NCBI GenBank assembly: GCA_958295975.1
Contig: OY282446.1
Coordinates: 248,001 to 312,000, forward strand
Direction of reading: 5' to 3'
Length of the DNA: 64,000 nucleotides
Origin: Tepidiformaceae bacterium
GTDB taxonomy: Bacteria > Chloroflexota > Dehalococcoidia > Tepidiformales > Tepidiformaceae
Below, piece after piece: positions 1,638-57,788 of the stretch. Each line of letters starts with the position of its first letter. Positions within the stretch are counted from its first letter, which is position 1. The notes beneath the pieces were generated by a model. The model was given only the letters and a program-made list of their open reading frames with translations, had not been told where the DNA came from and made no database searches. Made by a program: the position numbers and the translations under genes.

Positions 1638-2404
1638 GGGCGTGTTCACGCTACGGAGCATCTCGTAGCTGAGAGCGAGAAGGATGAAGCCGCAGTAGAG
1701 CGCATCCAGCTTGTCGTAGCGGGAGGCGATGCGACGGTAGCCCTTCAGCCGCCGGATGAGGCGCTCCACCTCGTTGCGACGGCGGTAGCGCTTGCGGTCG
1801 TACTGCCAGGGGCGTCGCCGGTGGGGCATGGGCGGCACCACGGGCACATAGCCCAGGTCCCGCGCCAGCTGGCGCGTGGCATCGCCCTCATAGGCACGGT
1901 CCATGATGAGAAACACGCCCGGCATGGGTCCCAGACGCTGGAGCAGCTTGCGGCCTTCGGGCGCGTCGCCCGCCTGGCCCGGGGAGAGGGTGGCGATCAG
2001 GGCCGTGCAGGCATCCGCGGCAGCCAGATGAAGCTTGGAGGACCAGCCGGCGCGGGAGCGTCCGATGGCCTGGGGCCCCTTTTTTTGAGCGCCCCCGTGC
2101 CGTCCGGGTGGACCTTCACGATGGTGCTGTCCAGCGACACCGCCTCCACCTTGATGCGCACGATCCGCTCCCGCTGGAGCTGCGTGAAGACGCGGTCGAG
2201 GACGCCGTTCTTCGACCAGCGGTTCATGCGCATGTAGACGGTGTGCCAGTTGCCGAAGCGTTCGGGAAGCCCGCGCCACTTACAGCCGTGCTCGGCCACG
2301 TAGAGGATGGCGTTGAGGACCTGCAGGTTGGAGAGGCGCACGGTGCCGCGCTGGACGGGGAGGACGGGGGCGATGCGTTCGTACTGGGCCTCGGTCAGTT
2401 CCAT
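1539..2404 (-). CDS. IS5-family transposase, two frames joined by -1 frameshift
   Basis: This is a DDE transposase split into two overlapping frames. The upstream frame (from ATG 2404, preceded by a GAGG motif) holds the N-terminal DUF4096-type helix-turn-helix segment (MELTEAQYERIAPVLP) and the first catalytic Asp (SLDSTIVKVHPDG). The downstream frame holds the second Asp (IMDRAYEGD) and the Y-R-E-K signature (YRRRNEVERLIRRLK). The frames join through a seven-A run on the minus strand (2080-2086), a typical -1 slippery site in IS5 subgroups. Fused length is about 290 residues. The last 32 codons lie beyond the deduced IS terminus: the target TA normally supplies a TAG or TAA stop, but here it reads TAC. 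The frame therefore runs into flanking DNA. An alternative start is GTG 2413. Confidence 0.85.
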
Positions 2405-2448
2405 GCCCCTCACCCTACCATAAACATCCCACTAGTGTGAACAGGCCC
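1638..2448 (-). mobile_element. IS5-family insertion sequence (811 bp)
   Basis: The boundaries come from imperfect terminal inverted repeats. GGGCGTGTTCACGCTA on the plus strand at 1638 matches GGGCCTGTTCACACTA on the minus strand at 2448, with two mismatches in 16. Both are flanked by TA (1636-1637 and 2449-2450), the short target duplication of this family. The size of 811 bp suits single-transposase IS5-group elements. The transposase reads right to left. The insertion lies directly upstream of the promoter of the Ig-like protein gene, so it could affect that gene's upstream regulation, but the TTGACA box at 2465 is intact. Confidence 0.75.
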
Positions 2449-2464: not shown

Positions 2465-2493
2465 TTGACAGCCGCGCGCTCCCTTCGTACAAC
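2465..2493 (+). promoter_or_regulatory. Sigma-70-type promoter of Ig-like gene copy 1
   Basis: TTGACA (2465-2470) and TACAAC (2488-2493) are separated by 17 bp. The same promoter block (TTGACA, similar spacer, TAAATT) precedes the paralogue at 55189, which supports function. The expected transcript start is near 2500, about 25 nt before the ATG at 2525. Confidence 0.75.
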
Positions 2494-2524
2494 TCCATCA
2501 GCGCCCGTCGCGCCGGAGCCTGTA

Positions 2525-5029
2525 ATGAAGCTCACCCCCCCCCCCCCACTTATGGCAAGTTACGCGCTGCGGCTCATCGCGCTCGCGCTCGTCGGCGGGA
2601 CGCTGCTGTTTGCCAACTCCGCCACGCACTCCCAGACGGCCTGCTCCTTCAGCGGCACCGCCGTCCGCGCCCAGACGTACATCGCCGGTACGGCCATCGC
2701 GTCCCCCGGCGCCAACCTCCCGATCACCTTCCCCACGGCCACGGGCTCGGGCTGCACGACGCCCATCGTCTACACCCTCACGCCCGTCGCCACCGCGGGC
2801 TCCACCGGCACGAGCGTGCCCGGCCTCACCTTCAACGGGAGCGCCACGCCGCCCACGCTCACGGGCACGCCCACCGCCCCCGCGGGCTATTCCGACACGC
2901 ACGTGCTCGCCTACACCGCCACGGACGCGAACGGCGACACCGCCACCGTCCAGTACCGCATCACCGTCGAGGCCGACAGCACGCCCACTTTTGCCCGGAC
3001 CGAGTATGCCCAAACCTTCTACGTCGACCGCTACGAAGTCTGGGGCACGCCGCAGGTGGACGGCGGCAACTATTTCGGCACCGGCGGCTCCCAGTACTCG
3101 ATCGCGGTCCCCGACGGAGAGATGGCGAACTACTGGGCCAACGGGCCCCTGCGGCACATCGCCAACGCCCACCAGATGACGGCCCTGCCCACCGCGACGG
3201 CGGCGGAGACGAGCCACGTCTTCACGTTCACGGACCGGGATGGCGACGTCGCCACCACGATGCTCAAGTTCAAGGTGGAGGACGCGCCCAGTCCGGACTT
3301 CTTCCGCGACTCCATCCGCGTGAACTGGATTCTCAACAGCATCCCCCGCAACGACAGCCCGCTGACCTTCGACGGCGCGGGCGGGACGGGCACGACCTAC
3401 GCCCTCAGCGGGACGCTGCCCGCCGGGCTCACCTTCGACGCCGCCCAGCGCCGCGTCACCGGCAGGCCGACCGAGGCCGGCACGTTCGCGCTCACGCTCA
3501 CGGCCACGGACAGCAACGGCGCGAGCGACACGCAGGCCGTCAGCATCTTCGTGTCGCCGACGACCGACCCCAGCACTGCCCCCGCGTTCGCGGGCCGGAG
3601 CGTCCTGAGCTGCACCGAGGTCAGGGTGCACTGGGGGGCGCCGCGCGGGGGCAATCCCCCGGAGGCTGGGTTCACCCTGCCGACCGTCACCGGCTATCGC
3701 ATCGAGGGGAAGCAGCGCGGCGTCGATTCCGACTGGAAGCTCATCGCCGAGACCGGGGCCGCCGCCACCAGCTATACGCACTCCGATCTCCCGCCCGGCT
3801 CGCAGTGGACCTACCGCGTCCGCGCCATCACGGCGGGCGGCGTCAACCCCTGGTCCCCGAACGTGCACGCATCGACGTCCGTGAACCCCAGCAGGCCCTA
3901 CCGCGCGCTGGAGGTGGGGATGACGATCAGCGTCTCCTACCCGACGGCCAGAGGGGGCGAGATCACGCGCTTCGAGTGGTACCGCTCGCCCGATCAGGCG
4001 CCGCTGGACTGGCAGCGCGCCCCCGGAGGCCCGGCGGGGTTCTACGACGTCACGGACGCCGACGTCGGACACCTGATCGGGGTGGCCTTCCCCGGCGAGG
4101 AGTACGTCGCCTGGGTCCACGCCGTCACCAGCCAGGTGACCGTGATCCAGTCCTTCGCCGGCGTCTACGATCCGGTCATCCCCGACGACTCCCCGTCCTT
4201 CGCCGCGAGCGGCGAGCGCATCGTGGAGCCGCCCGCATCCGTCAACATCCAGCTGCCCACGGCCACCGGCGGCAGCGGGACCATCGTCTACGCGCTCAGC
4301 CCCGACCTGCCCGCCGGGCTCGTCTTCGACGAGGACGCGCTCACCGTCACGGGCACGCCCCCGCCCGACTGGACGGGGGACTACGCCTTCACCGCGCGCG
4401 ACGACGACTGCGACATCGCCACCTACACGCTCGCCATCGGCCCCGAACCAATCATCCTCGAACCCGAACCGGAGTCGCCAGCGCCGTTCGTCCCGGCGAC
4501 GCGCTACGGCGCCGTCACCGTCACCGTGGCCGAGGAAGGGAACGCGCCGGAGGACGCGGTCTACGGCGTCCGCCTCGCCTGCGGGCCGTCCGCCTTCACG
4601 CCCGCGCTGGCCGCCGGGGAGAGCTATACCGCCTCGGTCGTGGCGGGCAGCCTCTGCGCGCTCAGCGTGACCGACCGGCAGGGCGCGTCGGAGGTGCGCG
4701 GCGAGTTCGCTGGCCGCCTCATCGGGGAGGGGAGCAGCGCCGCCACCGTCACGCTGGTCCACGAGGCCCCGGAAGAGCGGCTGGAAGCGACGCTGGTGGC
4801 GGGCCTGACCTTCGTGCGCTGGCGGGGCGAGGAGACGCCCGTGGCCGAGGCCGTGGCCGAGCTCACGCTGCGCGTCACCGCCGTGCACCAGTGGGACGTG
4901 GCCACGCAGTCATGGCGCTCCTGGTCCCCCGGCGGCGAGGCCATCCCCGGCATGAACACGCTGGCCGCGTTCGAGCCGGGCGGCATCTACTTCATCTTCG
5001 CCGAAGCGGGGACGGACGCTGCGAACTGA
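2525..5029 (+). CDS. Secreted multi-domain Ig-like/FN3 protein, copy 1 (C13 tract in frame)
   Basis: This is a probable exported surface or matrix protein of about 834 residues. I place the start at ATG 2525 because GGAG (2515-2518) lies 6 nt before it. The alternative ATG 2552, which begins the signal peptide MASYALRLIALALVGGTLLF, has only poly-C before it. Between these starts lies C13 (2535-2547), in frame. After the signal peptide come several putative-Ig (He_PIG) modules with GTYAL/LPAGLTF and VTGRPTEAGTF patterns. A fibronectin-III-like module follows (GYRIEGKQRG ... YRVRAITAGGVNPWS), then another Ig module, an EPEPESPAP linker and a conserved C-terminal domain. No catalytic motif or sortase signal is visible. 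The likely role is adhesion or cell-surface interaction (inference). The paralogue at 55284 shares the N- and C-termini but differs in the middle. Confidence 0.8.
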   Translation: MKLTPPPPLMASYALRLIALALVGGTLLFANSATHSQTACSFSGTAVRAQTYIAGTAIASPGANLPITFPTATGSGCTTPIVYTLTPVATAGSTGTSVPGLTFNGSATPPTLTGTPTAPAGYSDTHVLAYTATDANGDTATVQYRITVEADSTPTFARTEYAQTFYVDRYEVWGTPQVDGGNYFGTGGSQYSIAVPDGEMANYWANGPLRHIANAHQMTALPTATAAETSHVFTFTDRDGDVATTMLKFKVEDAPSPDFFRDSIRVNWILNSIPRNDSPLTFDGAGGTGTTYALSGTLPAGLTFDAAQRRVTGRPTEAGTFALTLTATDSNGASDTQAVSIFVSPTTDPSTAPAFAGRSVLSCTEVRVHWGAPRGGNPPEAGFTLPTVTGYRIEGKQRGVDSDWKLIAETGAAATSYTHSDLPPGSQWTYRVRAITAGGVNPWSPNVHASTSVNPSRPYRALEVGMTISVSYPTARGGEITRFEWYRSPDQAPLDWQRAPGGPAGFYDVTDADVGHLIGVAFPGEEYVAWVHAVTSQVTVIQSFAGVYDPVIPDDSPSFAASGERIVEPPASVNIQLPTATGGSGTIVYALSPDLPAGLVFDEDALTVTGTPPPDWTGDYAFTARDDDCDIATYTLAIGPEPIILEPEPESPAPFVPATRYGAVTVTVAEEGNAPEDAVYGVRLACGPSAFTPALAAGESYTASVVAGSLCALSVTDRQGASEVRGEFAGRLIGEGSSAATVTLVHEAPEERLEATLVAGLTFVRWRGEETPVAEAVAELTLRVTAVHQWDVATQSWRSWSPGGEAIPGMNTLAAFEPGGIYFIFAEAGTDAAN
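2535..2547 (+). repeat. Homopolymeric C13 tract, candidate phase-variation switch
   Basis: Thirteen consecutive C lie inside the first codons after the Shine-Dalgarno-supported ATG 2525. With 13 C the signal peptide and mature protein are in frame (ON). Gain or loss of one C would terminate or redirect translation. The paralogue has 14 C at the equivalent place. Confidence 0.7.
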
Positions 5030-55188: not shown

Positions 55189-55218
55189 TTGACAACTCGC
55201 GGGCTCCTTCCGTAAATT
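55189..55218 (+). promoter_or_regulatory. Promoter of Ig-like gene copy 2
   Basis: TTGACA (55189-55194) and TAAATT (55213-55218) are separated by 18 bp. The surrounding sequence is closely related to that of copy 1 at 2465-2493. Confidence 0.75.
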
Positions 55219-55259
55219 CCGGCCAGCGCCGTCGCGCCCGGAGTCCCCAGTGAAGCACG

Positions 55260-55273
55260 CCCCCCCCCCCCCC
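55260..55273 (+). repeat. Homopolymeric C14 tract, candidate OFF state
   Basis: Fourteen C follow GTG 55250, which has GGAG (55240-55243) 6 nt upstream, exactly as in copy 1. With 14 C the GTG frame is +1 relative to the signal peptide and protein. With 13 C it would be in frame. Confidence 0.7.
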
Positions 55274-55283
55274 GCCGCCGCTT

Positions 55284-57788
55284 ATGGCACGTTATGCGCT
55301 GCGGCTCATCGCGCTCGCGCTCGTCGGCGGGACGCTGCTGCTCGCCAGCTCCGCCACGCATGGCCAGTCGAGCTGCTCCTTCCCCGGCCTTACCATCCGT
55401 GCCGGTACGCTCATCGCCGGCTCGACCTACGCCATCGACCTCCCCCTGGCCTCGGGCTGCTCGGGGACCGTCACCTACACGCTCCCGCCCGACCCCACCC
55501 GCGGCGCGGGCACGGTCCCTCCCGGCCTCACCTTCGACGGGAGCGTGTCCCCGCCCACGCTCACGGGCATGCCCACCGCCCCCACGGGCCACTCCGACCT
55601 GCACGTGCTCATCTACACCGCCAGGGACGCGAACGCCGCGAGGGACACCATCGAGTACCGCTTCACCGTCGAGGCCGACAGCACGCCGGCGTTCGCGGAA
55701 ACCTCGTATTCCAAAACCTTCTACGTGGACCGCTACGAGCTGTGGGAGACGCCGCTGGCCACGGGCGGCAACTACCGCCGGAGCGGCTACTCGCTCCTGG
55801 ACACTGCCACGCCGCCAGCGACAGCAGTCCTGCCAACCGGCCTGCGTTACTATCAGAACGTCGACCAGATAGTCGCCATGTTCCCCGCCGCGGGGAACAA
55901 TGGCATGCCCCAGATATCGTCGTTCGCGACGTCGGCGGCGGCGAACTACACCCTCAAATTCACGGACACCGACGGCGACGAGGCCACCACGACGCTCACG
56001 ATCGCGGTGGCGGACGCAACCAGTCCGGAATTTACGCAGGACTCCGTCAGGATTCTCTGGATACTCAACGCGAAGCCCCGAAACGAATTCTCCTCATTCA
56101 GGCCCGTCATCCTGCACGGCGCGGGCGGCCCGGGCACGACCTACGCGCTCAGCGGCACGCTGCCGGCCGGGCTCTCCTGGACCGCGGCCACGCGCCGCAT
56201 CGACGGCCCCCCCACCGAGGCCGGCACGTTCCCGCTCACGCTCACGGCCACGGACAGCAACGGCGCCAGCGATACGCAGGCCGTCACCATCATCGTGTCG
56301 CCGACGACCGCCCCCCAGAGCCCGACGCGGAGCGTGACTGACTGCACGACGATCGAGCTCGCCTGGGAACCGCCGAACGGGGGCAACCCGCCGCCCTTTG
56401 GCTGGACGGCCCCGACGATCACCGGTTGGCGCATTGAGGGCAAGCAGCGCGGCGTCGACAGCGGCTGGCGTCTCATCGAGGAGGTTTCGTCGTACCTCCC
56501 GCTCGGCTATACCCACTCCGACCTCCCGCCCGGCTCGCAGTGGTCCTACCGCGTCCGGGCGCTCACGGCGGGCGGCGTGAACCCGTGGTCCATCACGGCC
56601 CACGCTTCCACGAAATGGAACAGCGCCAGGCCCTTCCACACGGTGGAGGTGGGCACGGTCATTGGGGCTTTCTCCTATTCGCCAGCCGGAGGCGACATCG
56701 CGCGCTACCAGTGGTACCGCTCGCCCGATCAGGCGTCGCTGGACTGGACTCCCATCGCGGGCGCGACCGAGGGCTTCTACGAGGTCACCGACGCCGACAT
56801 CGGGCAGCTCTTCGCGCTCGGCTGGAAGGCCGACACTTTCTACAACTCGGGGCCCGCCGTGCGGTGGGAGGTGGAGGGGGAGCCGTATCGACTGACGGGC
56901 GCTAACTGGTTCAGTCGGGTCCTCCCCGACAACTCCCCGTCCTTCGACACGAGCGGCGAACGCATCGTGGACCCGGGCAGTCCCGTCAACATCCAGCTGC
57001 CCACGCCCACGGGCGGCACCGGCGTCGTCGTCCACACGCTCACCCCCGACCTGCCCGACGGGCTCGTCTTCGACGACACCGCCTTCACCATCACGGGCAC
57101 GCCTCCGCCCGACTGGACGGGCGACTACGCCTTCACCGCCTACGACGAGGATTGCGACGTGGCCACCTACGCGCTCGCCATCGGCCCCGAGCCGATCATC
57201 CTGGAGCCGGAGCCGCCGCCCGCGCCGTTCGTCCCGGTGACGCGCTACGGCGCCGTCACCGTCAGCGTGGCCGCGGAGGGGGACGCGCCGGAGGACGCGG
57301 TCTACGGCGTCCGCCTCGCCTGCGGGCCGTCCACGTTCACGCCCGCGCTGGCCGCCGGGGAGAGCTACACCGCCTCGGTCGTGGCGGGCAGCCTCTGCGA
57401 GCTGACGATGACCGACCGGCAGGGGGCGTCGCGGGTGCAGGGCGAGTTCAGCGGTCGCCTCATCGGGGAGGGAAGCAGCGCGGCCACCGTCACCGCCGTC
57501 TTCCCCATGGACGGAGAACTGGCGGATCAGCCGGACGAGCGGCTGGAATCGACGCTGGTGGCGGGCCTGACCTTCGTGCGCTGGCGGGGCGAGGAGCGGC
57601 CCGTGGCGGAGGCCGTGGCCGCGCTCACGCTGCGCGTCACCGCCGTGCACCAGTGGGACGCGGCCACGCAGTCGTGGCGCTCCTGGTTCCCCGGCGGCGA
57701 GGACACCGGCGTAAACACGCTGGATACGCTGGAGCCGGGCGGCATCTACTTCATCTTCGCCCAAACGGGGACGGACGCCGCGAACTGA
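55284..57788 (+). CDS. Secreted multi-domain Ig-like/FN3 protein, copy 2 (start out of frame)
   Basis: An 834-residue paralogue of the protein at 2525. Signal peptide MARYALRLIALALVGGTLLL is nearly identical. Putative-Ig modules, one FN3-like module (GWRIEGKQRGVDSGW ... YRVRALTAGGVNPWS), another Ig module, an EPEPPPAP linker and the conserved C-terminal domain follow. That domain has APEDAVYGVRLACGPS and an end GGIYFIFAQTGTDAAN. The central modules differ much more than the ends. ATG 55284 has no Shine-Dalgarno. The Shine-Dalgarno-supported GTG 55250 is shifted by the C14 tract, so full-length translation may be off in this sequence. The position between ctaB and ctaG suggests insertion into an oxidase-assembly block. 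Confidence 0.8.
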   Translation: MARYALRLIALALVGGTLLLASSATHGQSSCSFPGLTIRAGTLIAGSTYAIDLPLASGCSGTVTYTLPPDPTRGAGTVPPGLTFDGSVSPPTLTGMPTAPTGHSDLHVLIYTARDANAARDTIEYRFTVEADSTPAFAETSYSKTFYVDRYELWETPLATGGNYRRSGYSLLDTATPPATAVLPTGLRYYQNVDQIVAMFPAAGNNGMPQISSFATSAAANYTLKFTDTDGDEATTTLTIAVADATSPEFTQDSVRILWILNAKPRNEFSSFRPVILHGAGGPGTTYALSGTLPAGLSWTAATRRIDGPPTEAGTFPLTLTATDSNGASDTQAVTIIVSPTTAPQSPTRSVTDCTTIELAWEPPNGGNPPPFGWTAPTITGWRIEGKQRGVDSGWRLIEEVSSYLPLGYTHSDLPPGSQWSYRVRALTAGGVNPWSITAHASTKWNSARPFHTVEVGTVIGAFSYSPAGGDIARYQWYRSPDQASLDWTPIAGATEGFYEVTDADIGQLFALGWKADTFYNSGPAVRWEVEGEPYRLTGANWFSRVLPDNSPSFDTSGERIVDPGSPVNIQLPTPTGGTGVVVHTLTPDLPDGLVFDDTAFTITGTPPPDWTGDYAFTAYDEDCDVATYALAIGPEPIILEPEPPPAPFVPVTRYGAVTVSVAAEGDAPEDAVYGVRLACGPSTFTPALAAGESYTASVVAGSLCELTMTDRQGASRVQGEFSGRLIGEGSSAATVTAVFPMDGELADQPDERLESTLVAGLTFVRWRGEERPVAEAVAALTLRVTAVHQWDAATQSWRSWFPGGEDTGVNTLDTLEPGGIYFIFAQTGTDAAN

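Follow-up and report, generated by a model that had tools for sequence, protein, structure and literature searches.

The P1 gene and its leader

Near the beginning of the 64,000-nucleotide stretch of DNA analysed here (the window) lies a gene for a predicted secreted or surface protein, P1, with Pfam matches to He_PIG (E 2.8e-15) and fn3 (E 9.8e-8), and further along lies a paralogue, P2; both carry a long run of cytosines shortly after their probable start codons (Table 1). The reading frame of P1 closes with a stop codon at 5027-5029, and the protein begins MKLTPPPPLMASYALRLIALALVGG... when read from ATG 2525. An AlphaFold2 model of P1 as a single protein was uninformative, with a pLDDT of 37.

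Table 1. Features of the P1 and P2 genes (window coordinates)
Feature	Position	Strand	Basis
P1 predicted promoter, sigma-70-type, TTGACA-N17-TACAAC	2465..2493	+	Equivalent element at -59 to -61 in 4/4 paralogues
P1 Shine–Dalgarno (SD) sequence, GGAG	2515..2518	+	Sequence; SD statistics; 16S 3′ end
P1 probable start codon, ATG	2525..2527	+	Sequence; promoter; tract-less P4 must start at the equivalent GTG
P1 protein, predicted secreted/surface, He_PIG + fn3, 834 aa; leader MKLTPPPPL, then signal peptide MASYALRLIALALVGG	2525..5029	+	Translation; Pfam
P1 C13 tract, beginning 10 nt after the start, in frame (ON) at 13	2535..2547	+	Run-length scan; frame table
P1 second ATG, in frame after the tract and lacking an SD; the less likely start	2552..2554	+	SD statistics; AGG in P4
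P2 predicted promoter, TTGACA-N18-TAAATT	55189..55218	+	Promoter comparison
P2 SD GGAG, 6 nt, GTG start (window 55250)	55240..55252	+	Leader reading; pattern search
P2 C14 tract, out of frame in the assembly (13 or 16 would be ON)	55260..55273	+	Run-length scan; frame table
P2 reading frame past the tract: 834 aa with 66% identity to P1	55284..57788	+	Translation; alignment

The initial annotation had placed GGAG exactly 6 nt before ATG 2525, and the intervening spacer, CCTGTA, can be read directly in the sequence. The start is followed by AAG CTC A, the 13 C, ACTT and then a second ATG, 27 nt downstream of the first and in the same frame, confirming that the run continues in frame into the signal peptide. 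That this post-tract ATG has no ribosome-binding sequence was likewise borne out: no SD motif lies 4-10 nt before it, whereas ATG 2525 has one. In the window, an SD precedes 24 of the 35 starts of coding open reading frames, compared with 7% of internal in-frame start codons, and the 3′ end of the 16S rRNA reads GGATCACCTCCTT, with a CCTCC tail.

Four genes – P1 and its paralogues P2, P3 and P4 – have in common a promoter-like element (TTGACR-17/18-TAMAMY) 59-61 nt before the start, followed by GGAG. With this conserved element about 60 nt before the start and the P1 tract 10 nt after it, the tract appears to be coding sequence rather than part of the promoter; promoter-spacer phase variation, of the type described for opc, was rejected for P1-P3 on the same grounds.

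An IS4/5-type element (DUF4096 + DDE_Tnp_1; 811 bp, window 1638-2448), flanked by TA, ends 16 bp before the P1 promoter. The genome holds three 100% identical copies of it, and the overlap between its two transposase frames falls close to an A7 run (minus strand), which suggests programmed frameshifting.

Paralogues, frames and the choice of start codon

The genome, a single contig of 2,401,284 bases with 73% GC, contains the paralogues P2 to P5. The same arrangement of promoter, SD, start and tract is found in P1, P2 and P3, with 13, 14 and 17 C, respectively, and differing frame states, while P4 has no tract. P3 (genome position 2087651) is, as assembled, off after 11 aa and would be ON at 15 or 18; beyond the tract its frame is intact over 843 codons, with 63% identity to P1. 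P4 (genome about 1921124) has GTG AAG CTC GCC CCA TCC CCG CTT AGG GCA AGT TAT, that is VKLAPSPLRASY, and reads VKLAPSPLRASYALWLVALALLG from the equivalent start, with AGG in place of the in-frame post-tract ATG that P1-P3 have kept; as it has no later ATG, its start must be the upstream codon. Because P4 has a one-base frameshift further downstream, its evidence on the start is strong, albeit not perfect. P5 (locus L057; genome 332116-333777, minus strand) lacks the N-terminal third and stands directly after an enoyl-CoA-hydratase-like gene, as a truncated copy.

It is conceivable, though unlikely, that translation starts at ATG 2552 and that the C tract is a 5′ untranslated or spacer element tuning transcription or translation. 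Such a start would leave a normal signal peptide, an in-frame ATG follows the tract in all of P1, P2 and P3, and in some genus relatives (locus L139) the tract does precede the coding frame and is separated from it by a stop. However, neither ATG 2552 nor its P2 equivalent at 55284 is preceded by an SD, the upstream start has a good one at -6, the corresponding P4 codon is AGG, and the promoter, with its fixed spacing, lies upstream of the tract. Together, the SD, the conserved promoter and P4 with its missing downstream ATG point to ATG 2525 as the true start of P1. The post-tract ATG of P1-P3 could give weak, frame-independent expression.

The tract thus lies between the probable start and the body of the protein, so that a change of ±1 shifts the frame: with 12 C, P1 would end after 217 aa, and with 14 an unrelated wrong-frame open reading frame follows. 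The initial annotation had called the frame open at 13 C, and ATG 2525 does open 834 aa; the ON state itself is provisional, being valid only if 13 is the true length, as a one-base assembly error would flip it. In textbook contingency loci, the wrong frame ends quickly. The wrong frames of P1 and P2 are long (217, >500 and 363 codons, hence all beyond 200), and such slow stops are usual for a genome of 73% GC; early stops are found in other wrong frames, at 11 aa in P3, 13-16 aa in the sugar transferase gene described below and 10-20 aa in a gene from another family (genome G238).

Long tracts in the genome and among relatives

There are 14 C or G runs of at least 10 in the genome – six of exactly 10, none of 11-12 and eight of 13-18. 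Extrapolation from the run lengths in the window, where no C or G run apart from the two long tracts is longer than 7, predicts about 2.8 runs of at least 10 and about 0.03 of at least 13, so that the eight observed represent an approximately 250-fold excess and the C13 of P1 lies far beyond chance. The initial annotation had proposed a search for GGAG-N6-start-AAG followed by poly-C; it returned three matches in the genome, none with a reversed control pattern and none in 37 other genomes of the order. Loss of mismatch repair was rejected as the cause of the long tracts because MutS and MutL are both present, and for the same reason slippage need not be extreme.

Six of the eight long tracts fall in classic targets of phase variation: the three He_PIG/fn3 genes, one PF02397 sugar transferase gene and two genes for PMT-type glycosyltransferases, glycosyltransferase genes being usual companions of phase-variation switches. 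In the sugar transferase gene (Bac_transf, E 7e-55), a C15 tract (L032; genome 87800-87814) follows ATG CCG A, 7 nt past the ATG; the gene is off at 15 and would be ON at 14, and an upstream family-2 glycosyltransferase gene has its stop codon overlapping this ATG (TGATG). The PMT-type tracts, G18 at genome 785691 (L036 1192-1209) and G17 at 1323981 (L038 5982-5998), both on the coding strand, lie about 160 nt after the start codons. About ten PMT paralogues are present in this genome and none, at the search threshold used, elsewhere in the family; the tract-less ones that can be read across the site have LDYVGGGGERAFDQ (GGGG-ER) or similar, which independently supports the ON frame assigned to the tract-bearing pair. 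The two remaining tracts, at genome 1960935 and 2360491, are both C13 (L041 1436-1448 and L043 1492-1504), in genes without Pfam matches; the frame of the L041 gene is shifted with 13 C and would be open with 12 or 15.

Outside this genome, no close homologue of the whole P1 protein was found in the family, and a search across 84,980 species genomes returned weak matches only; one such match, from an uncultured Dehalococcoidia MAG in which the locus can be aligned to one from the same genus, weakly suggests that the bacterium studied here is Dehalococcoidia-like. Long C runs are more widespread, occurring at gene starts in relatives at lengths of C12-C21. Runs of at least 12 C occur commonly across most of the genus and number 0-1 in the complete sister-genus genomes G022, G023 and G027. 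C15-C16 runs are found in genus relatives at the 5′ ends of secreted-protein genes; three of the proteins have fn3 domains, and another matches PPC weakly. At three loci (L136, L139 and L140; genomes G032 and G034), a common motif, GAATWYWTGTTC, stands between the C15-C16 tract and the secreted-protein gene, with a possibly transcriptional role.

Among 393 genomes of the class, an SD-start-C11 pattern was matched in four. In G238, SD-ATG-AAT-TTC-A-C12 precedes a signal peptide and fn3 protein, and n-1 and n+1 would yield 20 and 10 aa; in G310 (L174), SD-ATG-CTT-CTA-C21 precedes a gene, off at 21 and ON at 20, whose product has predicted membrane spans and does not match Pfam. The G354 match, where the tract stands before an unrelated short frame, was taken as chance. 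As G238 and G310 belong to other families, the layout of SD, start and C run is likely, on the strength of these sequences, to have arisen more than once.

Might the tracts represent neutral repeat growth in decaying copies, or assembly length miscalls, with no role in switching? We consider this improbable. P4 and P5 are indeed broken or truncated, assemblies of short-read relatives break at C runs (many contigs end there), and the majority of the tract genes are out of frame, with a bias towards +1: of the seven whose frames were checked in this genome, five would become ON if a single base were dropped, a pattern that systematic overcalling of homopolymer length could produce and that makes all ON/OFF calls provisional. 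Nevertheless, P1-P3 have otherwise unbroken frames of over 820 codons beyond the tract, most of the tracts fall in genes for surface proteins or sugar transfer, the complete sister-genus genomes are almost free of such runs, and the same design recurs in other families.

A putative surface switch and its known counterparts

In our preferred reading, to which we assign a probability of roughly 0.78, the P1 tract is a translational simple-sequence contingency locus and part of a repertoire. Transcription would start from the fixed promoter about 60 nt upstream, and ribosomes would load at GGAG and initiate at ATG 2525. Slipped-strand mispairing during replication would add or remove C just past the start, presumably reversibly, and the signal peptide and He_PIG/fn3 protein would stay in frame only at n=13 (or 10, 16 and so on). 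P1 would thus be randomly shown or hidden by each cell – probably at its surface – while P2 and P3 would flip independently through their own tracts, so that tract lengths should vary within the population. The initial annotation had proposed a phase-variable switch from the placement of the tract, and its proposal gains support from the SD, the promoter, P4, the paralogues at 13, 14 and 17 C and the glycosyltransferase tracts. Slippage by a stuttering polymerase during transcription, non-heritable and leaving each cell with a mixture of in-frame and out-of-frame messages, is very improbable: runs of 13-17 bases could allow it and it would explain why out-of-frame genes persist as intact reading frames, but C runs are less prone to stutter than A or T runs, and the differing lengths and frames among paralogues suggest change at the DNA level.

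To the contingency-locus reading we would add, at about even odds, that a genome-wide repertoire of poly-C/G tracts switches fn3/Ig-type surface proteins together with glycosyltransferases that may decorate them, with tract-bearing genes beside tract-less paralogues, and that the SD-start-Cn layout arose independently in at least three families of the class; steps of three, which change the number of prolines after the start (4, 5 or 6), could further grade expression.

Most known contingency loci come from host-adapted pathogens and commensals. Judging from sequence, these bacteria probably vary at random what they display on the cell surface, much like certain pathogens, presumably with some benefit to the cell, and a multi-locus set in an uncultured lineage implies a surface under variable selection – by host, phage or grazer. 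Tract lengths offer a directly countable signal in long-read metagenomes. There is also a warning for annotation, as gene callers are likely to miss the switch, either by taking the post-tract ATG as the start or by breaking such genes up as pseudogenes.

Although this kind of locus is well known, it appears to be undescribed in this lineage: as the initial annotation had claimed, searches of the literature on phase variation in Chloroflexi, Chloroflexota, Dehalococcoidia and sponge symbionts found no such loci. In a survey that included Dehalococcoidetes, poly(C) runs of 7-8 were over-represented in only 11 of 99 genomes (PMC2831843). Listeria inlA, where frameshifting in a 5′ poly(A) tract truncates a surface protein (PMC2831843), resembles P1 in having a homopolymer near the 5′ end of a surface-protein gene, but is a single gene with an A tract, compared with the multi-gene C13-C18 repertoire described here. 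In mga of Group A Streptococcus, slippage in a polycytidine tract likewise changes the reading frame, albeit of a regulator gene and with an indirect effect on a surface protein (PMC10330708), unlike the tract of P1. Poly-C also controls a surface protein in Neisseria opc, which is cited in PMC5084427 as a case of promoter phase variation, whereas here the promoter spacing is fixed and the tract would be translated. The translational contingency loci of Neisseria (hmbR/hpuA) and of Campylobacter surface-glycan genes, with their intragenic poly-G or poly-C (PMC3786947, PMC8355987, PMC5084427), share with P1 a long G/C homopolymer in frame, a frame switch by a single base and surface-protein and glycan-enzyme targets; P1, as a putative switch, differs from them in having its tract only 10 nt past the start, before the signal peptide, in an uncultured bacterium of 73% GC that has MutS and MutL.
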